Shown here: piece after piece, positions 9,460 through 62,192 of the stretch
Position numbering within the stretch: position 1 is the stretch's first letter
Layout of the letters: every line of letters begins with the position of its first letter
Assembly: GCF_000687475.1 (NCBI RefSeq)
Contig: NC_057316.1
Coordinates: 868,001-932,000 of the forward strand
Direction of reading: 5' to 3'
From: Ustilaginoidea virens
Lineage: Eukaryota > Ascomycota > Sordariomycetes > Hypocreales > Clavicipitaceae
DNA: 64,000 nt
Notes under the pieces: generated by a model
The model's input: only the letters and a program-made list of their open reading frames with translations
Told to the model about the DNA's origin: nothing
The model's database searches: none
Made by a program: the position numbers and the translations under genes

Positions 9460-12006
9460 TCATTGCTCTATATCGATAGCATCTGGGTTTGCTGTCGTAT
9501 CCCCTTGCCGAACTGTCGATGGAAGCGAGTCACTCGCCGCTACGAAACCCGGCATTGCCGCTGCTTGTTTGCCAAGGCCCGGTGCAGTGACCGTATAAGG
9601 CGGAGGCTGCGCCGAGGCCTGTTGACCGCGAGCCAGGGCTTGCGTTGCGATGAAGTTGACGTCGGTGTTGTACTGCGCCTGAACGCTTCGTTTGACGCGC
9701 AACATCTCCTTGAAAGTATCCTCGTTTCCGTGCTGAACCTCAAACTGCTCCCATCGCTCCCAGAAATCCCGATTCGTCCGAGGATCGCAGAATTGCGAGG
9801 CGTGTCCGTAAATGGCGCGCGCTCTGTCGATTTCGCCCAGCCGCTTTTCCATATCCGCAAACTTGAGGCACATCTCCTTGACTTCTGAATCTGAAAGCGC
9901 GGTAATAGCTCTTTCGTAAATGGGACGGGTTGACGATAATCCGAAGTTGGAGGCTGACTTGGTGATGTAGAGGTTGAACATGTCGGCGCGGTCCTCGTCA
10001 CTGACCGCTCTCGTTGCTCTTTCATAGATGCGCATTGCATGTCTTGCCAGCCCTCGCTCCTCTTCCAAGTTTCCGTACATTAGGTAGATAGTCTTCGCGA
10101 ATCTGGGAGGACAGTCCTCTACGGCTTGCTCAAACAGATCCCGCAGCCTTTCGATTCCTATTTTGCGATCTACTGCCTTGGTCAAATATAAATTCCACAG
10201 CTCGAATGCCACGGGGTAACTGAACAAGTCCAGCCCTCTCTCGTAAACCTTGAACGACTCTTCATAGTATCTGTTTTCTTCCAAGACATTCGCGTAGTTG
10301 ACAATGGTTTGTGGGGTTGCGATACGAAGCTCAAGAATACGCTCATAGACCTTCCTAACTTCTGGCAGCGTGGAGACGCTCTCCACAAGGTCCACGTAGA
10401 AACTCCAGAGTTTCCAACTTTTGTGCACCCGCTGTTGTGCTGAGAGTGATTCATCGAAATAGTCGACTGATGATCTCTTCGGGGCTTGGACAGCCTTCGC
10501 CATGATTCTCGCAGCTTCATCGAAATTCTTATTGCGAAGCTCCAGCTCAGCCCATTCGATCCACATATCTGCCAGCTCAGCAACAGATTTAAATGGAACC
10601 CTGACCGCTTTTTCCATGATTATGCGAGCGTTTCGAATGTCTCCCCCTCGTTCATAGAATCGTGCATAGTTAGCCCACAACTTGTGGAATGAGCCAATGG
10701 CATGTTTTGGGTTGATGGCAGCAATGGCCTGTGCGTATGTGCGGATAACCTCCTCGTTGTTGTCGCTCCAGAGCGCAACTCGTTTCTCCCACTCCGACAC
10801 AAGATTTGGATTCTGGCGTAGTAGCACGTCGTTGACTAGAAAGGGACGGCGATCCATTAAGTGCTCGAAACGCATCATACGAACTTCCCACTCAAGTTCC
10901 ACGTCATCATCATCTTCGCTGCCTGTCGCCCGGCTCGAGGCGCTTTCCATGAGCGCTCTGATTACTGACTCTTCGAATTCTGTATATGACTCGAATATAA
11001 GCGCGAAGTCCCTGACTGTCATGACTGTGGTAATTCCCTCCTCGAAGGCGTCCCGGGCCTTCTCGAAACTGCCTCTTCGAATCCAATAGGTAGCGAGTCC
11101 GGCCCAAAGTTTGCCCCTTTGATCAGAAAAGCGGCGTATTCCGCTTTTGATGATGCCTTCGACGTCTATGCCAGTTTCGTAGTTTGATTCAATAGCGGAT
11201 GCATGGGCCACCAGCAGATCGATCATCTCACCCCATAGTTCGTAGTGACCTTTGCCATGTTTGCTTGTGAATCGAACATTGTTCAGGAGATCCATGTAAC
11301 ATAACACCGCGTCGGTGTAGGCGCCATTCTCGACGAGCAGCTCGATGAAGTCCTCCATCTCCTCTGGATGTACCTGCATATAGCGCCTCCAGATCTTGAT
11401 GGAAGTGTTTCCTGCGGCGGCGTTCGCAAACGGCAGATACAGTGTCCAAATTCGATTGTGTTGCGTAATCGGTAAAGCCCTCAAGGCGCGGTCGAAGGCA
11501 CGTCTGATAAAAGTGATTTTAGGTTGCCTGCTCAGAAACTGTAGGTACATCTCCCATATCCGGGGCATTTTATGAAGAAGAATGAGGGCTCTTTCAAACA
11601 ACGCATTGACTTTGGCGTATTCGGAGGCAAAAGTCGCTGGATTCAGCTTCGCCACGTGAGCTGTGCGAAAGGAAAGATACTGTTTCCATTAGTCGAGAGT
11701 CCAGTCGAAGGGCCGAAAACTCTAACCTTTATCCATAGCTTATACGACCGCGGTAATTGGGCGCAGGCCCGCGCCATTACCATGTTTTGCTCCAAAAGTG
11801 AACCATGTCGAGACTTAAAATCGATATAGGTGATCCACGGCTTGATGCTACTGAGATCACGCAACACATCTTGTTCATAAATCAGATCCTCATTTGACTT
11901 GACAGTGCACTGTTAGCATTGGACCAAGAGGTTTTGTTGTTTGTTTCAGGTTGCGGAAACTCACTACTCCTTCGAGAGCTCTTGGTCCCGCAGACAAAAC
12001 AGCCAT
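9460..12006 (-). CDS. SYF1: Syf1 pre-mRNA splicing factor (HAT/TPR-like repeats)
   Basis: Read as complement of 11965..12006, 11727..11897 and 9460..11679, 810 residues. HAT (half-a-TPR) repeats run through the protein: SIKPWITYIDFK, YKLWIK|YLSFRT, PRIWEMYLQFL, NRIWTLYLPFA, ELWNLYLTKAV and others, with the usual W...Y/F spacing. This is the scaffold of the NineTeen/Prp19-associated complex (XAB2 in animals) needed for catalytic activation of the spliceosome (family knowledge). Intron 11680-11726 (47 nt, branch CTAAT) is fixed by the join LWIK|YLSFRTAHVAKLNP. The 14-codon first exon (MAVLSAGPRALEGV) and its 67-nt intron 11898-11964 (GTGAGT...GTCAAG, branch CTAAC) are inferred from splice signals; the N-terminus could differ. 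C-terminal 60 residues are low complexity and end DIEQ. Confidence 0.9.
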
Positions 12007-22563: not shown

Positions 22564-22568
22564 ATAAG

Positions 22569-22787
22569 TGTAACGAAGTGGCCCAATTGGGCCCTAAGCG
22601 GGTGTCTGCGCACATCGCCAGGTAAAAACCTATTCTTCTGCCTGACCATTAGACCAGACAAAAGAGTACGTATTATACTAAGTTACCATACTTGGTACAA
22701 TTGACACCTATATCCCCTTGGCACTATGCTGCGCGCACTTAAGCTTGCCCCCTTAGTATGATACGGGCGTAGCCCGAATCCTTAACA
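22569..22787 (-). repeat. Mini-element 3' LTR (minus orientation)
   Basis: 219 bp, starts TGTAACGAAG and ends CCTTAACA on the plus strand. Contains the palindromes GGCCCAATTGGGCC and CGGGCGTAGCCCG, the latter also found at the same distance from the terminus in the gypsy LTRs. Confidence 0.8.
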
Positions 22788-22929
22788 TAGCTTCCCTCTC
22801 CGCAGCCGGCCGTATGATACCATACACCCCCTAGAGGCTAGTCCCATCCTCTATAAGCCCAGATGAAGAGCCCGCTGTACGCGCCATATACGGAATTCGA
22901 ACCTGTGACCTTGGGTAACTTGGTATAAA

Positions 22930-23148
22930 TGTAACGAAGTGGCCCAATTGGGCCCTAAGCGGGTGTCTGCGCACATCGCCAGGTAAAAACCTACTCTTCT
23001 GCCTGACCATTAGACCAGACAAAAGAGTACGTATTATACTAAGTTACCATACTTGGTACAATTGACACCTATATCCCCTTGGCACTATGCTGCGCGCACT
23101 TAAGCTTGCCCCCTTAGTATGATACGGGCGTAGCCCGAATCCTTAATA
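22930..23148 (-). repeat. Mini-element 5' LTR (minus orientation)
   Basis: 219 bp, ends CCTTAATA, consistent with one RIP-type change of the terminal CA. It contains the self-complementary region TACTAAGT...ACTTGGTA at 23037-23058 and the 15-nt candidate self-primer 23034-23048. Confidence 0.8.
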
Positions 23149-23153
23149 ATAAG

Positions 23154-25889: not shown

Positions 25890-28731
25890 CCCAGCCTATA
25901 TACCGTTCCCCAATCTCGACCCCAGCTAACTCCCGGCCGAAGAGCGACTAGTAAAAGACTAGTACAACCAATAGTAAAATAATCGGGCAGTAGTAAGGGC
26001 GAGACGCCCCTAGCGTGGGACCCCAGCAGCCAAGAGGGCACTAGATTTCTAATCTATAGCGAAAATAACCCAATTATACAAAGGCCTATAAAAGCATAAA
26101 TTAGCAATACTTACCCAACTCCATATAGAAAAAATCGGCCTTAATTCCTTCCTCTACTTCTAATAAGTACCCTTAATGCCATTACCTCTTTGCCGCTATA
26201 GGGAAGGCCTAAAAGACCTTTATTATATTATCCTCTCCTGCCTAAAGTACTATAGATACAGGCATATACTCCTTAGACCCGGTCCCGGCCCTAGCTTACT
26301 TTGTAACCGATATAGTATATCTATCGCACTTAATAAACTATGCCTCATATAGACGATCGCTTGCTAGATACTTAATATCGACCAATTCGACTAATTCTAG
26401 CTCGCCTAATCCCTCTAATATAGTATAGCTAAAGGAGCCACTAAACTCCCCTATATAGCCCCTATATAATATTCATAGTAATCATATAGTAGGAATGAGG
26501 AGCCCTAGGAATAAGTAAATCTCTTAGGCCCTATAGGCTAAAATTAGTCGATAGGTATTATCTTAGTATTGGGGGTATCCTCCTTCCTTTCCCCCTTTTT
26601 ACTCCTCTTATTGCTCTCCCCCCTTTTATCTTTATTATCCTTAGTTTACTCCCCTTCTAAAGCCCCCTCCCCCCCCTCTTAGGCTAAGAAAACCCGTAAT
26701 AATATAGTAATATTCTTTTAGGCGTGGGCCTATCGTTCTAAGGCGAGGACCTTCCTTTCCTTAAGGTTTAGTATCTCTTAGGTTACCCTAAGAGCGCTAA
26801 GGCCCCCTATTGCCGCTACTGCTACTACCGCTGCCTATCTATACCCCCGAGAGGTAGACGCCTATTTAGCACTCTACTAGAGGGCCTTATAGTTATCTAC
26901 CTAAAGGCAAAGATAGTTAGCTAGTGACCTATACTATATACGAATTGAAAACGCACCTCTATCCCCCTGGTAATAGTCTCCTATATATTTAGGAGTTTTT
27001 ATATTAGGACCCGGTTCCTAGGGGTCCTCTCTAGGGGCATATATATTTTACCCGCTAGGGCATAAGGATAGTAGGCCGCCCTAGTCCCTACCTGTATTAG
27101 CTTCGCTAGAGAGTAGGTACAACCTGGCCTATACCTTATTAATTGCGGTATTAATACTTGGGATCCTCTGAGCGTATTAGATATAGCCCGTATAGCTATA
27201 CGCGTAGTTTTCCGGGCTACTATACGAGGGTTAGAAGCGGTTCCGTAGTACGCTAAACCCATACTCACCCCTTTATTTAATATTGCCGACCGTTTAGGCA
27301 TTTTTGCTTCTGCTGTTGCTATTCTTATTCTTATTGTTATTATTATAGCTATTGCTATTGCTGTTATTGCTGCTACTGCCGATCTGCTAATAGGGTTAGT
27401 ATCGGCCCCGTACCGCAATAGAGGGGTTATTATATGTTAAAATCCTATAGTAGCCTACTAGGCTGCTGGCCTTATGCCCTACTGGCCTACTAACCTTCTG
27501 GCCCTTATACCGCCTCTTGGACTTATGGTAGTATTACCTTAGGCCTTTGCCTTTTACCTTAAGGATTTTCAGTGGATTATTTACTGTATATCAAGTAAGG
27601 TAGGCCTTGTTGAAAAGGTGTGGCATTGCTAAATTAGCGTGGTTGCCTACTAGCGTGGTGGCGGCCTACTAGCGTGGTGTGGCATTGCTAAATTAGCGTG
27701 GTGGCCTACTAGCGTGGTGGCTAGTCCACTAGTGTGGTGGTTAGTCACTAGCGTGGTGGCTAGTTACTAGTGCGGTGACTAATTACTAGTGCGGTAGTTA
27801 GGGTGGTTGGAAAGGTCGGATATAGCGGGGTTGCTGACGTATCATAGCGAGCATTACGGGGAGCCCTCTTACTGGCTTCCCTGGATGCCTGGGCCCACCC
27901 CTCCTTCGTGTATATATAGGATAGCTTTCCCCCTTCTTTCTAGATAGTAGAAGGGTAGCACAATCGAGTCTGTTAATGCACTATATGCCTCTTAACTCCC
28001 ACCTTCCCTGCGTTTCTGGTTATCTTATATTTGCCTTGCCTTTACACTTGCCCTGCTTTATAGCACTTGTATAGTCTTAGGACTTAGTGAAAAATCTAGT
28101 ATTTATACTAAGATTAGTTCACAGGTCGCAGACAGTCTTGTGCCATCTAGCTAGCTAGTAAGGCTCTGCTTTTATAGTGACCTTGAGAATTGCAATATTA
28201 TACACTTTAGAATTAGCGCTATAGAGGAAAAGAAAAAAAAGAAGAAAAGGTATAAAGCTAGGGGGCATTACTAACCTATATACTGATATAGTGCCTAAGG
28301 CTAATCGCTCCTATCTTCAAATTCGGCTCACTTTTGCCTATATACTATAGACTAATATGCTTGAGATATACCTAGGCCCCTAAAGGCATACGCTTAGCGA
28401 GAATACTACTAATCCCACCCCCTTAGCCTTACCTTCCCTTTATTTCGCACCCAATAGTACTCTAACCTAGGCCTAATACTCCTGGAATTTATACTCGCAC
28501 TCTTCCTAAGTAATACCGCTAGATATAATCCTAAGTGGTTGCACACCCTACTCTCTTACGCACTGGATACCTGCCGCCCCTGCTATAGGGCGATATAAAG
28601 TAGAAATTAAAATTGCAGGAAGGGTTTTCCTCCCGGCTGCTAGGTTTTTCCTTTCCGAATCATCTCTATAGAAGTACTAGATAGGTTATTTAGCTTTAAA
28701 TAGCCTCTAGCGTAATTTAATAATAAATAAT
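25890..28731 (+). mobile_element. LINE L3, 5'-truncated copy (about 2.07 kb without its solo LTR)
   Basis: Flanked by the 15-bp duplication AATATAGTCCTATAG (25875-25889, 28732-28746). It matches the end of L1 ORF2 (FLIYSENNPIIQRPIKA region at 26055-26120; CRYREGLKDLYY at about 26200) and the whole LINE 3' region, and ends TAATTTAATAATAAATAA. Truncated 5' ends and long target duplications are typical of target-primed reverse transcription. It inserted in opposite orientation into its own family (L2) and later received a solo LTR at 27435. Confidence 0.8.
27435..28197 (+). mobile_element. Solo LTR of the C1 copia family inside L3
   Basis: 763 bp, TGTTAAAATC...TTGCAATA, target duplication TTATA at 27430-27434 and 28198-28202. 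Contains the 20-bp GTGGTGGCTAGT-type units (about 27640-27800). L3 sequence is continuous across it when compared with L1 near 20770. Confidence 0.88.
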
Positions 28732-28746
28732 AATATAGTCCTATAG

Positions 28747-28811
28747 CTCTTTTATAAAATCTGTAATAATATCGGCTGCTAGTCGCTTCCGCCCCTAGGC
28801 GAGTTTAGTCT
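28747..28811 (-). mobile_element. LINE L2, 5' end fragment
   Basis: Minus strand GCCTAGGGGCGGAAGCGACT...TAAAAGAGCTATAGGA corresponds to L1 at 15096-15160. It is the part of L2 displaced from 25889 by the L3 insertion. Cut off by R2 at 28812. Confidence 0.65.
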
Positions 28812-29122
28812 TATTGAAATCAGCGCCTTTTTAGCTATATTTTGGTACTAGTCTCGCCACCGTACGACGTCTCTACGTTGAGATATCGCGGTGGCTATAA
28901 TAGGCGCTATAGTAGGGCACAGCGCCCTACAACGCCGATTACAGTGGGCCATAGCGCCGGTCACGGCACCAGTATAGCGACCCACATCCGGCCACAGCGG
29001 CCGGTCACAATGGGCCACAGGGCCCACAATAGGCGGCGCATTTCTACGGGATTACTAAATAGGCAAATCTTGCTAATACCAGCACTTTCGGCCTTCTACA
29101 TATAGTCACCCGCTATACCGGG
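28812..29122 (+). repeat. GC-rich dispersed repeat R2
   Basis: Homologous to R1 from TATTGAAATCAGCG to about CCGGGCCTTTAC; the start TG is now TA. It differs from R1 mostly by C/T and G/A changes. Confidence 0.7.
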
Positions 29123-29292
29123 CCTTTACTATCGGAATCGCTATCGCAAGGTGCCCAATTGGGCACCAATTAGGCATATTGCGACGGATGAGCCGCGCAC
29201 ACCCGATGCGTACGATATGGCCACTTTAGCCCCTTTTGCCCCTTTACCCCTAAGCCCGGTAGGGCACGCGGGCAGCCCGGTCCGACTGCGCC
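29123..29292. other. GC-rich low-RIP segment, left target of C1
   Basis: Contains the palindrome GGTGCCCAATTGGGCACC at about 29150-29167. Ends GCGCC, the C1 target duplication; the same segment continues after C1 at 37550 with GATGCACGTGACCACAGCACG. No gene seen. Confidence 0.55.
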
Positions 29293-30069
29293 TGTTAAAA
29301 TCCTATAGTAGCCTACTAGGCTGCTGACCTAATGCCCTACTGGTCTACTAACCTTCTGGCCTTTATACCGCCTCTTGGACTTATGGTAGTCTTACCTTAG
29401 GCCTTTGCCTTTTACCTTAAGGATTTTCAGTGGATTATTTACTGTATATCAAGTAAGGTAGGCCTTGTTAAAAAGGTGTGGTATTGCTAAATTAGCGTGG
29501 TAGCCCATTAGCGTGGTGGCGGCCTACTAGTGTGGTGGCTAGTCCACTAGTGTGGTAGTTAGTTACTAGCGTGGTGGCTAGTCCACTAGTGTGGTGGCTA
29601 GTATACTAGCGTGGTGGTTAGTCTACTAGCGTAATAGCTAGTTACTAGTGCGGTGGTTAGGGTGGTTGGAAAGGCCGGATATAGTGGGTTTGCTGACGTA
29701 TTATATACGTGGCATAGCGAGCATTACGGGGAGCTTTCTTACTAGCTACCTTGGATGCCTGGGCCCACCCCTCCTTCGTGTATATATAGGATAGCTTTCC
29801 CCCTTCTTTCTAGATAGTAAAAGGGCAGCACAATCGAGTCTATTAATACACTATATGCCTCTTAACTTTTTACCTTCCCTGCGTTTTCTGGTTATCTTAT
29901 ATTTGCCTTACCTTTACACTTGCCTTGCTTTATAGCACTTGTATAGTCTTAGGACTTAGTGAAAAATCTAGTATTTATACTAAGATTAGTTCATAGGTCG
30001 CAGATAGTCTTATGCCATCTAGCTAGCTAATAAGGCTCTACTTTTATAGTGACCTTAAGAATTGCAATA
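29293..30069 (+). repeat. C1 5' LTR
   Basis: TGTTAAAATC...TTGCAATA, 777 bp; the terminal A-T-A fits TG...CA after a RIP change. Contains 20-bp units around 29500-29650. Confidence 0.9.
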
Positions 30070-32039: not shown

Positions 32040-35000
32040 AATATATCCTATTCTTCTTCTTCTACTATATCTATTAATATAAGCTATAGTGCTAAATCAG
32101 GCGGTAAGACCCCGAAAGATACCCTCCTTTACGATATAGGTTCTACTTATCATATTGTTAATAATAAGAAGTATTTTACTACTTTTTACTATTTTGAGAA
32201 GAATAATAAGCCTATAATTACTACTGGTGGCGGCCCTATTTCCCCTATTAGTTGGGGCATAATACGATTTACTATGCTATAGGGCATTAATCCTACAAAA
32301 TGGGGTATTATAGAGCTTAAGAATGCCCTATATATTCCTATCTTAGATATTAATATTATTAGCGGTGTAAAGCATTATGCCGCTAAAGGGGTATTAATTA
32401 AAAATCAGCTTTGGTTAGTAAGCTGTAAATGCATCGGCATTTTTAACTTTGAAAAATACGGCTTTTTCTTTCTATAGAAAGGAATAGATATACTACTGCT
32501 ACATTAACTATATAGCCATTGTACTATTAATAGTATAATAGTAGAGGTCCCTAGCCCTATTAACCCTACTGATTATAGTGATCCTAAGGATACTACTATT
32601 ACCCCTATTCCTACTACTGCGACTAGTAAGGAACCTATAGAGGCTACTAGCCCTACTACTAACTCTCCCGCTATTACGATTAGCGAAAAGCCTGCTATTA
32701 CAACTAGCGAAAATCCCGCTATTACGACTAGCAAAAATCCCGTAGTAGCTACTAGCCCTACTCCTGCCCCTATAGCTACTAATACAGAATACCAGAAGCT
32801 ATTATAGTTAGCCGGCATTTGGCATATACGGCTAGGGCATATAGGTATTTAGCTACTTAAAAAGACTTATACTAATACCCCTAGTCTTCCTAACCTTAAT
32901 AAGGTTAAAGATGCTGATTTTCGCTGCCTAGCCTGTATATAGGCTAAGAAGGTTAGAAGACCTTCTAAAGATGCGATACCTAATCTAGCTAAATGCCTAG
33001 ATATTATAGAAGGTGATACTTTTGCTATATCACCTATGCTATATAATAAATAACCTATTGCCCTTATATTAGTGGATAGAAAATCCTGATTCCGCTGGCT
33101 TTACTTGCTGCCTAATAGGGAAGGCACTATTGTATTTAAAGCATTATAGAGCTTTATACAGAGCCTATAGGTCAGATATGGCAAAACGCCTGTTGAATTC
33201 CACTATAATAGTGGAAATGAAATCAATAAAATGCTTAGTAATTAGCTTATTGAATAGGGCATAGCTTTTAATATATTTTGCCCTTATATTCACAAATAAA
33301 ACGGCTTAGCTAAGCGCTCCATTAGGGTTATAGCTGATAGACTACGTGCTACTATAGCCTGGTTAAGGCTACTATCTAACCTCTGGTCTGCTATAATTAC
33401 TAGCGTTGTTATACTAGTAAATATAATAGCTATTACTAACAGACCTTTTAGCCCCTATTAGGAGCTATTAAAGGATTATAACTAGATAATACTAGAGTAC
33501 TACCCTGACCTTATAAACCTTAGGGCTATTGGAGCAGCTATTAAAGTGCTTATACCATACGAAAAGCGTGTAAAAAGTAGAAAATTAGTGCCCTATACCG
33601 AGCCTGGTAGGCTCTTTGCCACTTTAGGTAATAATACTTATTTAGTCTACCTTCTAAAGAAGAAGGTTATTACCAAAACAACTTTTATTACCTTTATTTA
33701 TCAAAATGAAGGTATAGGCCCTATTTCTAATGGCCTAAAAGGAGACTTTTATAGAGGGCAAAATATAGGTTTAGAGGGGGTATCTAGTAGAGAACCTATT
33801 ATTTTACTAGATGACCTAGAAAGTATACCGGATCTTACTAACCTTATTAATATTACTAATACTAATGTTATACCGGATGACCTGGAAAGCATGCCGGACC
33901 CTACTAATTTTACTAGTATTATTAATGCTACCCCTGATGATATTACTAATACTAATGCCACTGTGGATTACCTTCCTAAGTCAGAAGGTACTATACTATA
34001 GTCCCTGGCTACTGTAAAGGATGACCTTATAGATATCCTTACTAGCCTTACTCCTGCCGACCTTACTAGCCCTACTGGCCCTGCTGGCCTTGCTGGCTCT
34101 GCTATACCTGCCAGCCCTACTAACCCTACTAGCCCTACCGACTTATTCCCTAATTATGATTTATATCACCTAATATAGGATTCCTGCTATATAGCTAAGC
34201 GTAAGCTAGCTAAAAAGGCCCCTAATAGTACGCCTAATAGCTAGAAGGATATGCTATAAAGCCCTAAAAAAGACCTTTAGATAAAGATATTATTTAAGGA
34301 ATTTAAGTAGTTATTGGATACTAAAGTCTTCCAATTTATTCCTAAGTCTAGCGTTCCTATTGATAGGAAAATTATATGCAATAGGCTTGTTTTTCGGATT
34401 AAAAAGGATGCTAATAATTAGCCTATAAAATATAAGGCTAGATTGGTTATTAAGGGTTTTATGCAAGTCGAAGGAAAGGACTTTCAGTATACCTATGCTT
34501 CTACCTCTATCCCACCTACCTGGAGGGTTATACTAGCTTTAGCTGCTAGTAATAACTGGGAAATAGAGCAGATCGACTTTATAGGCGCCTTCCTAAATAG
34601 CGAACTTTCTAAGACTATTTATATAGATATTCCTGATGGATTTCTTGAATTTATAGAGAGCTTACTACTAACTAATAGCGATAGTAAGCTTTAGTCTGAT
34701 ATTCAACGGCAACAGCTACTAACTTTACTTAAAAAAGCCGGCTTTAATCCCTCTATTAAGCAAGCTATTTTACTAAAGAAGGCCCTATACGGGCTAAAAT
34801 AAGCACCCTGCGAATGGTAATACCGGCTAAAAGACCTGATTTCTAGTGAAGGCTTTTTACCTTTAGCATCTGATACTGCCGTCTTTTATAATAAGCAAAC
34901 TAGCATTTTTATCGTCATTTATATTAACGATTGCCTATTAGTTGGTCTAAATATAACTTATATTAACCAGCTAAAAAGGATATTGCAATTCTCAAGGTCA

Positions 35001-36645
35001 CTATAAAAGCAGAGCCTTACTAGCTAGCTAGATGGCACGAGACTGTCTGCGACCTGTGAACTAATCTTAGTATAATACTAGATTTTTCACTAAGTCCTAA
35101 AACTATACAAGTGCTATAAAGCAGGGCAAGTGTAAAGGCAAGGCAAATATAAGATAACCAGAAAACGCAGGGAAGGTAAGAAGTTAAGAGGCATATAGTG
35201 CATTAACAGACTCGATTGTGCTGCCCTTCTACTATTTAGAAAGAAGGGGGAAAGCTATCTTATATATACACGAAGGAGAGGTGGGCCCAGGCATCCAGGG
35301 TAGCCAGTAAGAAAGCTCCCCGTAATGCTCGCTATGCCACGTATATGATACGTCAGCAACCCCGCTATATCCAGCCTTTCCAACCACCCCAACCACCGCA
35401 CTAGTAACCAACCACCACGCTAGTGACTAACCACCACGCTAGTGACTAACCACCACACTAGTGGACTAGCCACCACGCTAGTAGGCCGCCACCACGCTAG
35501 TAGGCCGCCACCACGCTAGTAGGCCACCACGCTAATTTAGCAATGCCACACCTTTTTAACAAGGCCTACCTTACTTGATATACAGTAAATAATCCACTGA
35601 AAATCCTTAAGGTAAAAGGCAAAGGCCTAAGGTTGGTAAGACTACCGTAAGTCTAAGAGGCGGTATAAGGTCCAGAAGGTCAGTAAGCCAGTAGGGCATT
35701 AGGCCAGCAGCCTAGTAGGCTACTATAGGATTTTAACAAAGGAAATTTCATAAGGTCTATGCTATAGAAGACCGCGGTCCGGCTTCCTTTTTCTTAGGCG
35801 TATAAATTATACGAAATAGAAAGGAAGGTTTATTATAGCTACACCAAACCTAATTTATAGCAGAGGTTTTAGCTAAATTCGGCTTATAGGATACTAAACC
35901 TCAGTTAATTCCACTTTAACTAGGGATTCTAAATGAATCTAGTGGAAAAGACCTTAGCCCTACTGATTAGAGCCTTTATCAGAGCCTTACTAGCACTATA
36001 ATGTGGCTTATAATGATGATTAGGCCCGACCTAGCATTTCCTACGCAATACCTCTCTCGGTTCATATCTAAGGCAACTAATATGCATCTAAATGCTGCGA
36101 AAGGCAGCTTTAGCTACCTTAAAGGCACTAAGAACCTAGCTATTTGCTTTAGTACTACTAAAAACAACCAATAGCCTATTATAACCGCTTATTCTGATAG
36201 CGATTTTGCTGGCTGTAAAGAAACCTCTAAATCTACTAGAGGCTTTCTTACTACTATTAATAGTGGTCTTATTAGCTGGCGTTCTAAGCGAGCCTCTTTA
36301 GTAGTGCTATCTACTTTAGAAGCTGAATCCGATGCATTACTTAAGACTATCCGTGAGGTCTAGTGGCTTTCTAACCTTTATAAGGAGCTGGAAATCGATA
36401 TTCTACGCCCTATACCGTTATACTGCGATAATTAGGGCTCTATTTCGAATTCTAATGATCCTAATTAGCACGCTTGCACTAAGCATATGCTATTAAAATT
36501 CCGGTATATTAGGGAGCAAGCCTAGCTGGGCTTAGTTAAAATTACCTACTTACCTACTAATAGTATGCCTGCTGATGGTCTTACCAAGCCACTGCCGGGC
36601 CCTAAATTTACTAGGTTCCGCGAGTTACTAGGTCTTAGGGCCTGA
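32040..36645 (+). pseudogene. C1 pol remnant (protease, integrase, RT, RNase H)
   Basis: Protease active site now LYDIGSTYHI at about 32130. Integrase zinc domain HIRLGHIG...CLACIQAK (32820-32950) followed by the core; a 151-codon stretch without stops lies at 33546-34001. RT (ARLVIKGFMQVEGKDF; IDFIGAFLNSEL, 34430-34620) with the YVDD box as Y-I-N-D at 34920-34931. RT is cut at 34980 by the solo LTR and resumes at 35744. RNase H ends with ADGLTKPL at 36571-36594, a copia hallmark. An Ala/Thr/Pro-rich linker with 24-27-nt imperfect repeats sits at 32690-32780. Confidence 0.75.
34981..35738 (-). mobile_element. Solo LTR of the C1 family, antisense inside C1 RT
   Basis: 758 bp, TATTGCAATT...TTTTAACA on the plus strand; target duplication AAGGA at 34976-34980 and 35739-35743. 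It retains many CA/TG dinucleotides, unlike the surrounding element, so it is younger or less RIP-affected. Contains the CCACCACGCTAGT 20-bp units at about 35390-35530. Confidence 0.9.
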
Positions 36646-36767: not shown

Positions 36768-37544
36768 TGTTAAAATCCTATAGTAGCCTACTAGGCTGCT
36801 GGCCTAATGCCCTACTGGTCTACTAATCTTCTAGCCTTTATACCGTCTCTTGGACTTATGGTAGTCTTACCTTAGGCCTTTGCCTTTTACCTTAAGGATT
36901 TTCAGTAGATTATTTACTATATATCAAGTAAGGTAGGCCTTGTTAAAAAGGTGTGGCATTGCTAAATTAGCATGGTAGCCCATTAGCGTGGTGGCGGCCT
37001 ACTAGTGTGGTGGCTAGTCCACTAGTGTGGTGGTTAGTCACTAGCGTGGTGGCTAGTCCACTAGTGTGGTGGCTAGTATACTAGCGTGGTGGTTAGTCTA
37101 CTAGCGTAATAGCTAGTTACTAGTGCGGTAGTTAGGGTGGTTGGAAAGGCCGGATATAGTGGGTTTACTGACGTATCATATACGTGGCATAGCGAGCATT
37201 ACGGGGAGCTTTCTTACTGGCTACCTTAGATGCCTAGGCCCACCCCTCCTTTATGTATATATAGGATAGCTTTCCCCCTTCTTTCTAGATAATAGAAAGG
37301 CAGCATAATCGAGTCTGTTAATGCACTATATGCCTCTTAACTTCTTACCTTCCCTGCGTTTTCTGGTTATCTTATATTTGCCTTGCTTTTACACTTACCT
37401 TGCTTTATAGCACTTATATAGTCTTAGGACTTGGTGAAAAATCTAGTATTTATACTAAGATTAGTTCACAGGTCGCAGATAGTCTTATGCCATCTAGCTA
37501 GCTAGTAAGGCTCTGCTTTTATAGTGACCTTGAGAATTGCAATA
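36768..37544 (+). repeat. C1 3' LTR
   Basis: 777 bp, same length as the 5' LTR, preceded by the polypurine tract AGAGGGGG (36762-36767 and before) and followed by the target duplication GCGCC. Confidence 0.9.
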
Positions 37545-40907: not shown

Positions 40908-41160
40908 TATTACGGGCTCGGGCTACGCCCGCGCCACAATATGGCTAGGACTCGGGCTGCGCCCGTGCCTAGCCTAGGCAGGGTCATATAAATTAGCGGC
41001 ACGGGGTCACAGGACTACGCCAGGACCTCGACCTATGCTAATGTATAGTTAAATAGACTATTAAGAGGCCCCTATTCGGGTTCTCTCTCTTTCCTCTTTA
41101 GTCTATTTAATATATTCATTCGATGCCTATTTGCAGTAGCCCTAAGGCCAGTTCTTTATA
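40908..41160 (+). repeat. G1 5' LTR
   Basis: Starts with two CGGGCTRCGCCCG hairpins, has the R-start candidate AGTCTATTTAA at 41100-41110 and ends CTTTATA. The following 41161-41172 (TTGAAATAGACT) is the primer site, one mismatch from the G3 form. Confidence 0.8.
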
Positions 41161-46747: not shown

Positions 46748-46991
46748 TGTTACGGGCACGGGCTACGCCCGCGCCACAATGTGGCTAGGACTCGGGCTAC
46801 GCCCGCGTCTAGCCTAAGAAGGACAATAGACGGAGTCACGGGACTATACTAGGACTCCGATATGTGTTATGATCGGGATATAAATAGACTAGATAGAAGG
46901 TTCCTATTTGGATCCTTTTCTTTCCTCTTTAGTCTATTTAATATATATTATTGACGCCTATTTGCAGTCGCCTTAGGGCTAGTCCTTTATA
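46748..46991 (+). repeat. G2 5' LTR
   Basis: TGTTACGGGC...CCTTTATA. R-start candidate AGTCTATTTAA at 46931-46941, TATA-like GATATAAATAGAC upstream; matching primer site TTTAAATAGACT directly after the LTR (46992-47003). Confidence 0.85.
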
Positions 46992-54862: not shown

Positions 54863-55104
54863 TGTAAAGGACTGGCCCTAGGGCTACTGCGAATAGGCGT
54901 CGAATAAATATATTAAATAGACTAAGGAGGAAAGAGAGAGGGCCCGAATAGGGGCCTCTAAGTAGCCTATTTATATCTATATGTAGCACAGGCCGAGTCC
55001 TTAGCGAGCCCTTATAACCCTATGCCGATACTCCTAAGGCTAGTCGCGGGCGCAGCCCGAGTCCTAGCCATATTGTGGCGCGGGTATAGCCCAAGCCCGT
55101 AATA
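54863..55104 (-). repeat. G3 3' LTR
   Basis: 242 bp; on the plus strand TGTAAAGGAC...GCCCGTAATA. Flanked inside by the polypurine tract (plus-strand ACCCCCCTTCTCC, 55106-55118). Confidence 0.88.
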
Positions 55105-55639
55105 TACCCCCCTTCTCCGCCTTAGAGTCGGAAAAATCGCCTTCCATCATCAATTAATCCTCCGCTAGGGACCAATCATATCGCCGATTACTATATCGCA
55201 ATATCCTCAAATCCATATATAGGCCAATTGCCAGGTATAGGAAGGATTCGTCTATAACTATAGCGGATATAGCTATACAATTAATAGGAGTCGTACAGTT
55301 ATTAATTGGGAATAGTATAGTAGAAGCATATAGAAGTTCGTCGTCGCACCGCCAGCTAGAAATTAACTGATGCAGCTGGGAACGTTATAAAAAATTTTTT
55401 GCTAGCTGCCGGTTGGAAATCTCCCTATAGTCTTTATTTTTCCTCATTAGGGCTTTTTTCCTTCTTCCCTTCTTCTTATTAAGGCCATCAATAAGCATTA
55501 AAGGTCCCTATTATTATAAGTTTTATCCCATATTAAGCCCGTATTACATACTAATCGGTTAAAGTATTATTTCTATCCCGCTCACATTAGTATTCCTTAC
55601 CGAATTCTATCTCTATATAACTAGCTGCTAACTCCCTTT

Positions 55640-56880
55640 ATAGCGAGACCTAGTCTAGCCTATCGTAAAGCCTATTAGTAAGTCTTAAGTCCCTACCTCT
55701 ATCGCGAGCGTCTTATGCTGACCCCGTTTAGAGCCCGAATATATCTTTATCTACTACTAGAAGTGCTTTTACTAGGGAGGGATCGAGCCCTACTCATCCC
55801 TAAAAGCCATACCGCACCGTTAGCGATTATCTCCTAAAGAGGGACTCCTCGGATAAAGAGTATCAATATATAAAAGACGAAGAGTTTCCATACGATAGAT
55901 ATACCAAGTATATATAGTCGACCGGAGAGTTGCCTGTATATAAGTATTACAGGAGAGCCAAAGGGTGCAAAAGCTGCGCCAATTCTTATGCATCCTGCGT
56001 ATAGCTTAATCAGCGTCTCGCGGGGAACCCCATACTATAATGCATCTTATGCAGCCAGATTAAAGTAGTAAAGGAGGGGAGGGCTATCGTAGAGCCCGCT
56101 TATCCTAAGATAGATACGCAGAAAGCGTATACCGCTATCCTTACCCCTAAGTTTCAGGCTTTAAATAATTAATAGCATTACGCTTTTACTGCCGAGTAAG
56201 TAGCCCCTAGTGCCTCGCGTTTAGCATTCGGGCTAAAGGATGCTGCCGGTATAGTTTCTACTGTATTTACGGCATTAACGCCCTCGCGGCGCTAGGCTAG
56301 GTCTATTATAGATCTCGCTCCTATTCTAAATATTATAAGGGAGATATAAGTGGAAGCCTAGGAACATTATGCCAGGATGGAGTAGTACTGGGTTAAAGCT
56401 TAATATCCCTAACTACCCCCGCCCCTATCTTAGCCCGCCCTCCCCATATATTACGCAGGGGGGGAACTATTATACGATTAGGGCGGCTAGTATTATATAG
56501 AGGCTCCGCCGCCGCCGGCATAAGGTTATCTAATGCAACCCTTATAGTAGTAGGCAGACCCCGCTCTACAGCCCCTTACGCCCTCGCCGTCTTTATTACG
56601 GCCGCCTCTATAGATACCGCATCATCTGGCCCTATCTTATTAAGGGGTCTTATCGTCTCCTAATATACCCCTGCTGTATTCGCCTTATAGTATCCCGCAG
56701 ACTCTATCACATTATAGATATATAGGGAACTATCCCCGTCTGATATATAGCCTATATACGCGTCCTACCCTATAAGGACCCCCGCTGCTACTAGCCTATA
56801 CGCCGCTATAGGAGCAGGAGGAGGCTTAGAGAGATAGAGAGTAGCCTTAAGAAGGGGCGTATTAAAGTTAAGCCTATATC
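55640..56880 (+). pseudogene. Cys-rich/Pro-rich frame antisense within G3
   Basis: Limits approximate. Plus-strand frame between G3 pol and 3' LTR, opposite to gag-pol. It reads DEEFPYDRYTKYI, then YYRRAKGCKSCANSYASC at 55945-56000, i.e. CX2CX6C, followed by CILC at about 56041, a pattern like the first part of a Zn2Cys6 or related zinc module, though the sixth Cys is not seen. The C-terminal half is Pro/Gln rich (EAPPPPAQGYL; LQPLTPSPSLL). Several TAG codons interrupt it at likely Gln/Trp sites. No function assigned; G1 ends before the matching point and G2 leaves the window, so it cannot be tested here whether the family always has it. Confidence 0.5.
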
Positions 56881-56979
56881 GGCCCCGGTTTAATTTATTA
56901 TATTATATTTTTTTTTTTTTTGCGTATTTTTATTATTTTATATTTTATTTATAGTAGTAGGCATTCGGCGTCGTTTACT

Positions 56980-59900
56980 AGTCTAATAGACCTTATTTCG
57001 GGACCCAGCTAGGCCTATTATAAGTCCTAATATCCCCTTATTTAGCCTCGAATATTTCTTATGCAGTAGTATCCTTAAAGTTTTCTAAGGGTTCTTATAT
57101 CGGTAAATCGTACCCTTTCTACTTTACGAGTATATTATATTTCCATCCTTAGCCTTATGCATTTTTCGCTATAAGTATCTCTTTAACCTTATACTCCTCG
57201 TATAGGTTTATAGAGTCTTAGAGAAGGATAAATAGGGGCCTAAGTCATATATTAGTTATTACCTAATTAGGTAATAGATCGGAAGTAGCTTATTCGACTA
57301 AATTAATATAGAAAACCGGATAGATACCTTATAGGATATTAAGCTAGATATTAAGTAGTAATAAGACGGCAATAATAGTATATTTAGCAGAGACCTAATT
57401 AAGCTTCTTATATAGGCGGTTCGTTTTAATATTCTAGAGGTTTAACTATACCTAATTACTAACCTAAAAGCGCTTAGCCGGGCATTATAAACGGTTAATA
57501 GTATCTTGCTATCGTTATTATATAAAGGCGATAGTAGCCTAGGCTAATTCCTATCCCTTTTTAAGGTTACTAAAAAAGAGAGCCATATACCCCTTCGGGG
57601 TAATTAAGCTTAGGGTTACCTCTAGAGGCAGGGCGACAATCAGAATATTAAACCCATTAAGTAACTAATTCAAGCTAAACCCAGTAATAAATAATATCCG
57701 GTTATTTAACGCGAGTTAATATACCGTAAGATGATATAGCCAATCATACTAATCAAAAGAAACTATAATATAGAGGACCGCCTATACTTCTTAGTTTATT
57801 CGCTTTATACCGCTATTAGTTTAGGGGTAGTATACTATTAATAGAAGTTATTCGGTCCTAACTAATTTATATAGTATAGATTAAAATTAGCCTACTTAAT
57901 CCGAACCTCGATCGCTAATAATCTCCCTAGGGAAGCTATAAAAGCGCTACTAATACTATTAAAAGCATTTTATACAGTCTTCTATTTTTATTAAGTATAT
58001 AGCCTTAAGCTGGATATACTTCGATAAGCGGTTTATAATCACTATAAGGAATCGCGGGTCGGAGGTATTATAGGCAGGAAGGTCGGTTATAAAGTCGACC
58101 GATATTTACGACTAAAAGCAGTCTGTAATTAATAGCGGTTATAATAGGCCCTGGCGCAATTAGCGGCTCTTATATACCCCGCAGTATTAGCAATTCCAAA
58201 CGTATCTCGCTACCTTAGATAACATATTATCGAAGTAATAATCCTATCGCAATAATTAAAAGGTAGTATTTTTCCCTAGGTGGCCCGTAATAGGCGAGTT
58301 ATAATAGCATTAGATCACCGTAGTGGTTAAGGGCTTAAATAATAGGAGCCATACCTATATCCGATAAAGGAGTATACTATATGCATTTAGGGTATAATTA
58401 GCAATTTATTCTTATATTGCTGCTTCTACTAGAAATCGTTGTTCTTTATTCGCAACTATTATCTATTAGGCCTAATATATACTATCTTTAGATATCGCTT
58501 AGTCCTAGATAGCTTAAAGGTGGGAGTTAGTAAAGATATATAGGCCGCGAGGTAGGGTGGTCTATAGGGCCAAGGTCGGTATTATCCCGCCCTCTATCTT
58601 ATCTATATTAAGTACTAAAATAGATAGCGGTTTTAAGATCTAGCCGATTTATAGCTCTGCCCTGCCTGCCTCTTATTCCTATCGAGAAAGCGTATTAGGG
58701 CGTTAGGCTTATAACCCTAGCCTATACTAAAGATAGAAGTTAAAGAGTGCTAGAGTCTTAGCCTATTAGGCTTATCGCTTGGATATTTTTTATAGTCGGG
58801 CGAAATACTCTAGGTTCTTATAGTCGGTAAGGATAGTAAAAGGGGAGGCTACTAAATAGAGTTCTACTAACTACGCCTTAAGGCAAAAAATAATAGTAAG
58901 GAGTTCCTTATCGTATATAGTATAATTCCATTCTACATCTAATAAGCAAGCGGAATAGTATACAATAGGGTAGAATATACTATCTTCCCCGACTTACGAT
59001 AGATAGCCACTAAGGGCCATATTAAAACTATCTGCCTTAAGAACCATCTCTTTATTAAGGTGCTATTAGGCGAGAACTAGAGACGATATAAAACACTACT
59101 TAAGCGCTTAAAATACCGCCTTTTCTTCGTCTAATTATTAGAATAGGACCCCTTTCTTTATTAACCTAACTAAAAGGTCGATAAAGCGGGAGAAATCTAA
59201 GATAAAGTTATAGTAGAAGTTAGTAAAACCAAGGAAACTATAAACGCCTTTTAATTTCGTAGGTGCTTCCTAGTTCTAAATAGCTTTAATCTTTTTAGGG
59301 TTTAGGTGGATTTCCTTTCCGGCCGTTACGATATATTTTAGGTACTAAACCTCCTTTACTGCGAAGTCGCACTTATTAAGATCTAAATTTAGGCCGGCTT
59401 TTTGCAGTTATTAAAGGATTTCTTTAACGCGCCCTATATAGTCCGCCTTTATTCCCCCGGTATAGATTAAGACGTTATTAAGGTAGGCAGTTATAAAGTC
59501 TCTTAGCGTATTCCCTAAGGCCCTATTAATATATCTTTAGAAAGTCGTAGGGGCCCTAATTAGGCTAAATAATATAATAAGCCATTTAAATAGTCCGAAT
59601 TATATGCGGAATACAATTAAGTATTTATCGCCCTTTATAATATATATCTTATGGAATGCTATGCGTATATCAACCTTAGTAAACTATTTCGCTTAGGATA
59701 AGGATTGTAAGGTCTCCTTAATTAAAAGGAGGGGGTATTGGTCTTAGACTATAACCTTATTAAGGGCCCGATAGTCGATACAAAAACGCTACCTGCTATT
59801 CCCTTTTCTAGCTAGTAGGACTAATGCCGCTACCGATAAAGAGCTTACGCAGATTTATCTTTTATCTATTAGGTTAGTTACTTATCTTTGAACCTTAAGT

Positions 59901-61908
59901 AACTAGTCTTATGGCATATTATATAATAGGCCCTAAGGTAAGTCTGGCTGGCTCTTATCTATAGTCTTTTTGAGCCGGATATAGTAGTCTAATATACCTT
60001 AATATAGAGGGAGACCGGAAGCCTTCTTTTTATTAAAAAGGTCGGCGAATTCCTATAATTCTATTAGGAATACCTATAGCTCCTGCAATTATAGGGCAGA
60101 GTCTTAATAAGGTAGTAGTATAACATAAAGGATGTATATTATCTCTTATAAGTTTATCGTAATAAAGGAAGTCGACTGGTCCCTAGAGTATTTCGCCTGC
60201 TTTAATATACTATAGAAGACCGAGCTAAAGATATTTACTATAGTCGGACCCTATTGCCTTCTTATCGATTCCTTAACGATAAGGCTACCTATCGATTTAA
60301 TCTTCAATTAGCGTTACTTTGCCTACAGTATAATATTATAGTGCTCCATCTAAGGCATCCTAAAGATAATATCGTAGGTAAGGCCTGGGATAATATAAAG
60401 CATAACTATAGATGGCCATCCATCAATATTAATTGCCATATAGACGATATAGGTAATAGAAGAACGCATTACCTTGCGTTCTCCTAAACGGCTCTAAATA
60501 TCTACTACTATTCCGATTTCCCTACATTATAGCAGGCGGATAGGTTGGAGGCCTAACTATTATACTATCCTTTCGCTTATAGCGCTATAGTAGTTATATC
60601 CTAAGTCGATTAAAGTATTAATAAAGGTATAGGATTTATATAAGATTAGTACTAAAAAGGGGTATCTATCTATTTATTCTGCGATCTCCTTTAATTCCTT
60701 TTATAATTAGGCTAGGGTTTATATGCGTATTTTACGCCCTCTAATAAGACTAGGTTTAAGGGCTATTCTTTTTCCTGATCTTTATTGCTATTTTCGATCT
60801 CTACGACTTATAAGTTAAGCGAGGCCACTTTAGCTATATTGGGTTGGATTACCGGCAATAAGTGGCATATAAACGTCTAATAATTAGGAGAGCTATACTA
60901 AAGATAAAGACCTTTCTTCTTATAATTTTTATACTATTCTTTAGAGACCTATATCGCCTTAGGTATGCACTAATTACCCTTTGAGTCTAGCTTATTAATA
61001 CCCGATATTTATATATCGCCCTCGGAATCCTAGGCGTATATCGATCGGGAATAGGTCGAACCTATATAGTAATTAATAGTCAAGCTAGTCTTAATATCGA
61101 TAGCAATTTATTAGTAACGGTCTACCGCCGAATAATAATTGTAATGGGAGACCCTAAGGCTAATAATCTTATCAGCTATACGAGCGTTAAGCGCCGATCG
61201 GAGGTATTTAAGCTTAACTTCCTTAGGCCAACCGAGACCACTAGTAAGCATAAGTTTTTCCTTAAATTGCATAAAGAAGGCAGCAAAAGGTTCCTTAGGG
61301 CCTTAGCGTAAAGAGTGCTTAAGCTTAATAATAGTGCGATCCTATTAGTGCGGGTCCTTAAAGAGACGTTAGAGGTATTTAAAGAACTTTATTATATTAT
61401 AATCGTAAGCTATACTATTCTCGAAAAAGGCTGCGACCTATAATTAGACTATAGACGAAAGGTTTTAGAAGATAAATATCCATTAAGTCTTCTCGTCCCT
61501 AATAAATTCCTTATTGACCTCAAGCTTATATTGCATAAAGGTCCGCCAGGCTATAAATATAGCCTTTTTGCTATTAAAGGGGTCCCCCATTAGGATCGGC
61601 TTGCGTTTTAGCTAGGTATCCTAAGCCGTAGGGAGGGGGGCGTTCTATTATACGACTAGGGCCGGTTAAGTGGCATTTTAGGAGCTATTTAACTGGTTCG
61701 CAAGGAGGGTCTACAGCAAGGCGGCAATAGCAGCAAGGTATTGCATATTAGTCTGCATCTGCGCCTCTATCTATTGTAACCCTAATGCGAGCTGCTCTAC
61801 TCGGGTATATATATTACGTCGGGAGTATCGTAGTCTTAGGTTGTCTATACCCGTTTCTCCAGGTATACTCATCTCGATATCTTATATAGCCTGCATTATC
61901 GGCTCCAT
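56980..61908 (-). pseudogene. G3 gag-pol remnant
   Basis: Collinear with G1 in reverse. Gag has WPKEVKLKYLRSALNARI-like text (about 61170-61230); RT region near 59480-59560; integrase and chromodomain at the end (LENFKDTTA-like text, 57060-57110). Every domain carries TAG/TAA at Gln/Trp codons. Confidence 0.7.
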
Positions 61909-61938
61909 AATGTGAGGTTATAATAGCAAGGCTGAGAG

Positions 61939-61949
61939 AGTCTATTTAA
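61939..61949 (-). promoter_or_regulatory. G3 self-complementary primer site
   Basis: On the minus strand TTAAATAGACT, one base after the 5' LTR. Its exact complement AGTCTATTTAA lies inside the LTR (62001-62011), 52 nt downstream of a TATAAATA box. Confidence 0.75.
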
Positions 61950-61950
61950 A

Positions 61951-62192
61951 TATAAAGGACTGGCCCTAGGGCTACTGCAAATAGGCATCGAATGAATATA
62001 TTAAATAGACTAAGGAGGAAAGAAAGAGGGCCCGAATAGGGGCCTCTAAGTAGCCTATTTATATCCATATGTAGCACGGGCCGAGTCCTTAGCGAGCCCT
62101 CGTGACCCCGTGCCGATACTCCTGAGGCTAGTCGCGGGCGCAGCCCGAGTCCTAGCCACATTGTGGCGCGGGCGTAGCCCGAGCCCGTGACA
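61951..62192 (-). repeat. G3 5' LTR
   Basis: 242 bp, TGTCACGGGC...CCTTTATA on the minus strand, with GC-rich hairpins at its start, TATAAATAGG and R-start candidate AGTCTATTTAA. Confidence 0.88.

Follow-up and report, generated by a model that had tools for sequence, protein, structure and literature searches.

The window, a 64,000-nucleotide stretch of the Ustilaginoidea virens genome, comprises an AT-rich repeat island (14000–64000) that adjoins a gene-rich stretch of ~49% GC. A syf1 gene is found at 9460–11655, and its closest counterparts among named relatives are those of Epichloe and Metarhizium, a placement in Clavicipitaceae-like Hypocreales. The island contains a three-copy repeat at 27435–30069 and 36768–37544, with an inverted fourth copy near 34980–35738. 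A Copia-like reading of the open reading frame at 33486–34001 was rejected, as it gave no Pfam match. The subject of this work is a 580-bp element located at 22569–23148.

The element is composed of two 219-bp long terminal repeats (LTRs) around a 142-bp inner part (22788–22929), and its sense strand is the minus strand of the window. In this orientation the 5′ LTR is at 22930–23148 and the 3′ LTR, its direct repeat, at 22569–22787. Positions 2 and 155 are the sole differences between the two LTRs. In this copy the 5′ LTR starts with TA for TG, a RIP-type change; a repeat comparison within the window returned the pair as direct repeats 22564–22785 and 22925–23146 at 99% identity. The element is flanked by an exact 5-bp target-site duplication, ATAAG, at 22564–22568 and 23149–23153, and a polypurine tract, GGAGAGGGAAG, followed by CTA (22788–22801), precedes the 3′ LTR. 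No ATG-started open reading frame longer than 59 amino acids overlaps 22569–23148, and Rfam returned no match for the element. The LTR pair with two differences, the 142-bp inner part, the lack of an open reading frame, the ATAAG duplication and the purine tract beside the other LTR had all been described in an earlier, sequence-only reading of this DNA, and each of them is found as it was described.

The whole genome (37.16 Mb in eight contigs) was searched for related sequences. At least 44 matches to the element, fragments included, were obtained when the best 40 of 92 candidates were scored. The LTR terminus is present at 113 sites with up to two mismatches (none for the reversed control), and the pattern of the primer-binding site (PBS) at 54 places with up to two mismatches; eight further places with three mismatches were set aside, the reversed control giving three. 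From the fetched loci, at least 54 inner regions were catalogued. Exact 5-bp duplications flank 31 of the 40 loci first examined, compared with 9 of 1560 cross-paired controls, and when the count on these loci was repeated at eleven shifted positions, a single duplication appeared at one of them and none at the other ten. Among the 37 simple complete copies, with LTRs of 206–225 bp and inner parts of 139–173 bp, 32 carry exact duplications, as do 16 of 20 near-full solo LTRs. The family thus consists of dispersed, noncoding elements of less than 1 kb with two short LTRs, target duplications, and a PBS and a polypurine tract flanking the inner part. These dispersed copies, together with the duplications that also surround solo LTRs, identify the window element as one copy of an ascomycete family of TRIMs (miniature non-autonomous LTR retrotransposons). 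A genome search for the repeat and a score of its 5-bp duplications were among the checks proposed with the sequence-only reading, and their outcome excludes both a single-copy sequence and a family whose copies lack target duplications.

The copies carry the imprint of RIP. Comparison within LTR pairs gives 282 transitions, against 11 transversions and 9 gap columns, and CA/TA or TG/TA contexts, the mark of RIP, account for 215 of the transitions. Neither a transversion nor a gap separates the two LTRs in 27 of the 37 elements, the median divergence over all LTRs being 15%. By transversions and gaps the nearest LTR is the element’s own mate in 64 of 74 cases, but by all differences in only 44 of 74, which we attribute to RIP. 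Two subfamilies can be told apart by the LTR terminus, CCCGTATC versus CCCGTCTC, and a hairpin in R (see below) also largely differs between them. LTRs and inner parts also form tandem arrays at four loci, whose outer duplications are exact at L038 and L080 and deviate by one base at L022 and L081. At a further locus, L083, an LTR–TA–LTR junction without an inner part is found, where the outer duplication agrees at 3/5 bases.

A single base, T (22929), separates the 5′ LTR from the PBS, TTATACCAAGTTACC (22928–22914), which pairs at 14 of 15 positions with GGTAACTTAGTATAA (23048–23034), a site inside the LTR that would represent the 5′ end of the RNA and the start of R. In 3000 dinucleotide shuffles of the window LTR, the best complement to the PBS reached 12/15. 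Both the 14/15 complementarity and its position one base past the 5′ LTR had been pointed out from the letters alone, together with the likeness of this spacing to that of gypsy elements, and the 1-nt spacer is indeed the same in the gypsy elements of the window. The complementarity extends to the family: in 51 of the 54 inner regions the PBS is complementary to a single LTR site at 11–15 of 15 positions. The best complement in the element’s own 5′ LTR reaches 15/15 in nine cases, 14 in 19, 13 in 12, 12 in eight, 11 in three and 9 in three; the three exceptions (the first unit of the L022 array, L041 and L079) have no intact primer site upstream. The maximum over 1080 shuffled LTRs was 12 pairs, reached in six of them. 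In the 51 regions the 3′ end of the primer site is located 94–105 nt upstream of the LTR end.

Since RIP turns C and G into T and A, conservation was scored by purine/pyrimidine changes and gaps alone. By this RIP-independent measure the primer site (0.0031) and the PBS (0.0023) vary little, compared with LTR stretches 25–72 in U3 (0.053), 82–101 (0.019), 116–131 (0.026) and 143–170 (0.053), or with inner positions 49–100 (0.017). Also conserved are the LTR terminus (0.0014) and LTR positions 171–206 (0.0053). The mismatches between primer and PBS are mostly C/T or G/A, the kind that RIP produces, and no clean covariation emerged; the 15th pair in one subfamily, and likewise L081, depart from this pattern.

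Folds were calculated for the segment that starts with the primer site and ends at inner position 45. A primer/PBS stem of at least 10 bp was present in the minimum-energy structure of 36 of the 37 copies. In four copies, the R–U5–PBS segment is far more structured than its shuffles (z −5.8 to −7.6), in contrast to U3 and the inner part beyond a B box described below (z −0.9 to 0.8), a difference that fits an RNA starting at the primer site. The antisense of R–U5–PBS likewise gives strong structure, with z values of −5.3 to −6.3, which inverted repeats would lead one to expect, so that folding by itself leaves the strand unfixed. Downstream of the primer site, a conserved hairpin in R (22992–23029) is found in 37/37 copies, with two main stem lengths of 16 and 12 bp, four bases apart on each side; these lengths were taken from the first 40 of 75 distinct segments, and some copies have lost pairs. 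The U5 palindrome GGGCCCAATTGGGCC (22941–22955) adjoins the LTR end as a U5-IR-like hairpin, inside the loop closed by primer and PBS. Taken together, the sequence comparisons and the predicted folds show a conserved RNA structure that spans the primer site, the PBS and the sequence between them; its primer/PBS stem would close a loop containing further hairpins. Self-priming of the family is well supported by these comparisons, and the proposal that the window element is a self-primed, non-autonomous, TRIM-like retrotransposon is upheld by the LTR complementarity, the folds and the target duplications.

Regarding the proteins needed for such an element to move, the LTR terminus (23125–23148) points to a Ty3/gypsy family. 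The 24-nt terminus of the 3′ LTR, TGTTAAGGATTCGGGCTACGCCCG, agrees at 20/24 bases with the gypsy LTR at 46748, exactly as had been noticed before, and the commoner TRIM and gypsy forms agree at 21/24, the corresponding value for one other LTR family being 8/24. Positions 12–24 of this shared terminus read CGGGCTACGCCCG. The form TGTNANGGNNNCGGGCTACGCCCG is found with at most one mismatch at 430 genome sites, TRIM sites included, and its reversed pattern at none. Of 28 non-TRIM sites inspected, 27 are LTRs of 241–253 bp and one has no recognisable LTR end. An 11-nt self-PBS with 10 or 11 pairs lies one base past the LTR in 20 of the 27, and in the remaining seven the LTR is followed by different sequence, which is what solo or 3′ LTRs should show. 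Matches to the integrase zinc-binding domain PF17921 are located 3.7–4.6 kb inside 14 of 57 gypsy LTRs, so that a gypsy-type integrase (H2C2 domain) lies between LTRs with the common terminus at these 14 sites; three more matches lie at other distances, and the controls gave 0/43 for TRIM-type LTRs and 1/57 on the wrong strand.

The window itself contains, outside the TRIM, a decayed candidate helper of this kind on the minus strand (54863–62192), with LTRs at 62192–61951 and 55104–54863, the duplication GATAT, a self-PBS at 61949–61939, an integrase zinc-binding match at 58163–58333 and a purine tract, GGAGAAGGGGGG, of the TRIM type. No homology between TRIM and gypsy elements was found past the ~24 terminal bases; what they otherwise have in common is how the priming sites are laid out and the kind of purine tract. 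The last 12 LTR bases agree with the TRIM in 7/12 in a RIP-changed gypsy copy, and the gypsy TATA-like site, where found, is ~54 nt before the primer, compared with ~26 nt in the TRIM. On account of the terminus, the self-PBS, the integrase matches, the 5-bp duplication and the purine tract, the gypsy family is the best helper candidate, and a self-primed Ty3/gypsy family with the same LTR terminus is a plausible helper. The sequence-only reading had named a self-primed chromovirus as the driving element; the self-primed gypsy part of that proposal stands as plausible, and the chromovirus label is unsupported, because no chromodomain was found near the gypsy elements (the seven genome hits are all elsewhere), though decay could hide one.

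Three observations concern the gypsy elements and the TRIM U3. Two copies of the CGGGCTACGCCCG hairpin, 34 bases apart, are present in the gypsy LTR, one of them often reading CGGGCTGCGCCCG; in the window the doubled hairpins are at 40919–40965, 46759–46805 and 62135–62181. The TRIM U3 contains a second PBS-like stretch, TTGTACCAAGT (LTR positions 88–98), which is the inverted-repeat partner of the primer (23061–23034, minus strand), and gypsy LTRs such as L063 and L070 similarly have TAAATAGACT upstream of the primer AGTCTATTTAA. Finally, the integrase zinc-binding match at G000:C1:5996389–5996541 lies in a 604-codon stop-free frame, most others being decayed.

The inner part and R also contain tRNA-like boxes, which were scored with A- and B-box weight matrices built from the host’s own tRNAs. 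A B box is found at inner position 27 in 54/54 inner regions, 49 of which score within the tRNA range. In the window copy it is GGTTCGAATTC (22893–22903; GGTTCGAATCC in most copies) and scores 12.1, slightly under that range (12.5); only one other window site, at 55780, reaches a score of 12, and no second site within the copy exceeds 2.7. Inner positions 1–37, which include the PBS, a spacer and the B box, have no gap and almost zero RIP-independent change in the 54 copies. In the L080 array, BLAST aligned just inner positions 1–43 and 1–49, and short islands beyond them are common by eye. The survival of the B box under RIP is no proof alone, because the box lacks RIP-prone dinucleotides. 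The best A-box site is 83–89 nt upstream of the LTR end in 47 of 54 cases; in the window it is TGGTCTAATGG (23007–23017), enclosed by the R hairpin, with a score of 12.6 where the host’s own tRNAs score from 10.3 up. Among the 54 LTRs, damaged ones included, 28 A-box scores are in the tRNA range (≥10.3), 14 are at 7.3–10.25 and 12 are lower. Two forms present in many copies, TGGTCTAACGG and TGGCCTAATGG, are identical to the A boxes of the host’s own tRNA-Gln and tRNA-Arg. In 35 of 37 copies each LTR contains a single run of five or six T, and the 37 inner parts contain none, an absence that carries no weight because runs of five A are equally absent there. The T5 run in R (22985–22989) is a weak candidate for a Pol III terminator; it is also present in the 5′ LTR, and both it and the A-box stretch lie within hairpins.

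The A box in the LTR and the B box behind the PBS are perhaps the two halves of an RNA polymerase III promoter split over the border between LTR and inner part. With the boxes so divided, the promoter would be complete just where the 5′ LTR joins the inner part. The most probable account of the family, to which we assign a probability of roughly 0.78 as a whole, is that of a self-primed TRIM whose RNA starts at the primer site and which is mobilised by gypsy-supplied enzymes. The RNA would begin at the primer site, around LTR position 102; the gypsy reverse transcriptase and RNase H would cut off its first 14–15 nt as a primer, in the manner of Tf1; the cDNA would be completed via strand transfer through R; and the gypsy integrase would insert it, recognising the LTR ends common to both elements. 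Less surely, the transcript would be made by RNA polymerase III from the split tRNA-type promoter. That the family is the first self-primed TRIM, and that it has a Pol III promoter divided across the LTR boundary, its A box in R and its B box behind the PBS, is a tentative proposal that we regard as possible but doubtful. Beyond the sequence-only reading, the analysis adds the tRNA-like boxes and the structured R–U5, as well as the division into two subfamilies, tandem arrays and solo LTRs.

The same self-primed TRIM might instead be transcribed by RNA polymerase II from a TATA-like site in U3, the boxes being tRNA-derived leftovers or part of the R hairpin, and to this we give a chance only a little short of even. 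The site, GATATAG (23069–23075), lies at the presumed end of U3, ~26 nt before the primer site, a distance that suits a Pol II start there, although its conservation is not strong (0.047). The A-box stretch is itself variable (0.037, with 30% gaps), falls under the tRNA range in 26 of 54 cases and sits within a long hairpin with two main stem lengths, which could be a sufficient explanation for it. Moreover, a tRNA-like start is expected 12–20 nt upstream of the A box and would therefore fall downstream of the primer, which speaks against Pol III. What Pol II transcription does not account for is the B box, fixed in 54/54 within a block that shows almost no RIP-independent change, and still aligned in the L080 array, in which BLAST left the rest of the inner part unaligned.

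The other explanations differ in what the element is or in how it is primed. Under one of them, a tRNA would pair with TTGTACCAAGTTACC, the complementarity to the LTR would be accidental, and the family would be a tRNA-primed TRIM of the Helenus type moved by a Copia helper. Fungal Helenus elements are described as tRNA-primed and linked to Copia (PMC10886601), and the 5-bp target duplication is common to them and to the present family. Yet the PBS–LTR match exceeds that of shuffled sequences and is conserved, and the best fit of a tRNA to the PBS is 10/14 among 45 tRNA genes of incomplete isotype range: 45 of 63 tRNA matches were fetched, and ARAGORN recognised 45/45, naming no Leu, Phe, Pro, Trp, Tyr or Glu. 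The exact 13-nt complement of the PBS, AACTTGGTACAAA, occurs 25 times in the genome (three times for the reversed control); 24 of these are PBSs of the TRIM, the remaining one, at C1:1989101, is in no tRNA gene, and so no tRNA gene of the whole genome contains it. A tRNA-primed PBS was rejected on these grounds, and the Copia-moved alternative is accordingly very improbable. An origin by deletion from an autonomous element that shared these LTRs and is either extinct or unseen is unlikely, though less so: stops are found in most integrase matches and the genome search scored the best 40 of 92 candidates, but all 54 inner regions carry the B box at the same place and no integrase match lies in the 9 kb downstream of any of the 43 TRIM-type termini examined. 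No autonomous partner with the same PBS was found among the 54 places with up to two mismatches. There is next to no chance that the sequence is a SINE or a tandem duplication of host DNA and not an LTR element. The four arrays and the tRNA-like boxes, which are also seen in SINEs, might suggest it, but target duplications, TG…CA ends, solo LTRs and a purine tract are features of the family, and LTR pairs are closer to each other than LTRs are between copies; a tandem host duplication, one of the outcomes that the sequence-only reading had named as fatal to its proposal, is excluded by the dispersed copies with their target duplications and by the solo LTRs.

The self-primed family resembles known TRIMs in its size of less than 1 kb, LTRs of 100–250 bp, PBS, purine tract and lack of an open reading frame, and also in its target duplications, solo LTRs and tandem arrays, and it differs from the usual ones in that the PBS is complementary to its own LTR and not to a tRNA. 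A tRNA-type PBS is usual for TRIMs without being defining, as bivalve elements without a clear PBS are still filed among them (PMC6934838); in the part of that paper devoted to PBS-less elements, the only context in which they appear there, self-primed elements are mentioned with no mechanism proposed. Helenus and Ajax, as described by Kojima in 2024, are TRIMs whose LTRs carry promoters of the Pol III type (PMC10886601). According to that description, Helenus uses a tRNA primer, its tRNA-like sequence was not found to be complementary to the PBS, and it is reported from Pucciniales and Agaricomycetes, with a link to Copia in fungi (PMC10886601). Like Helenus/TRIMp3, the present family is a TRIM with tRNA-like A and B boxes and the 5-bp duplication of the fungal elements; unlike Helenus, which has both boxes in the LTR, a tRNA primer and a link to Copia in fungi (PMC10886601), it has its B box behind the PBS, outside the LTR, as well as LTR priming, a Ty3/gypsy candidate helper and an ascomycete host. 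Because only the A box is in the LTR and the B box is in the inner part, the family was not filed as Helenus. Cassandra is likewise a TRIM that has taken a promoter of the Pol III type, a candidate here, from a small RNA gene, but it is a plant element whose promoter is 5S-derived and contained within the LTR (PMC10853983).

The closest parallel for the priming is provided by Tf1, in which RNase H cuts off the first 11 bases of the RNA, paired to the PBS, and which needs a U5 stem-loop (PMC7175516, PMC4600332). As in Tf1/Tj1, the PBS of the TRIM is complementary to the putative 5′ end of the RNA, and the RNA is predicted to be structured, with a U5 stem-loop near the PBS; in contrast, Tf1 uses 11 nt and encodes its own proteins, whereas the TRIM pairs 14–15 nt and encodes nothing (PMC7175516, PMC4600332). 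Searches of the open-access literature turned up neither a self-primed TRIM nor one with a split promoter, closed literature and Repbase being outside their scope.

TRIMs have been described as tRNA-primed, and a self-primed one would imply that priming of the Tf1 type works in trans on a noncoding RNA of ~400 nt. Such an element would be a minimal natural substrate with which the needs of a self-priming reverse transcriptase could be tested. If the split promoter is true, a block of ~40 nt would serve as primer-binding site and promoter at once, and transcription would take place from complete 5′ ends alone, leaving solo and 3′ LTRs silent; the Pol III RNA would bear its own primer at its 5′ end, and the gypsy elements, with another promoter, would give the proteins. 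A promoter split between R and the inner part would then be a new way for a short LTR element to keep its 5′ end transcribed.

One locus, L076, had the first 86 nt in common with the family and was considered as an autonomous partner; it was rejected, as it proved to be a TRIM LTR interrupted by another, abundant LTR retrotransposon of ~7 kb (C1:695412–702719). The LTR of this retrotransposon starts with TGTCGGAATCGC, and at least about 40 more LTR-like matches to it are spread over the genome.
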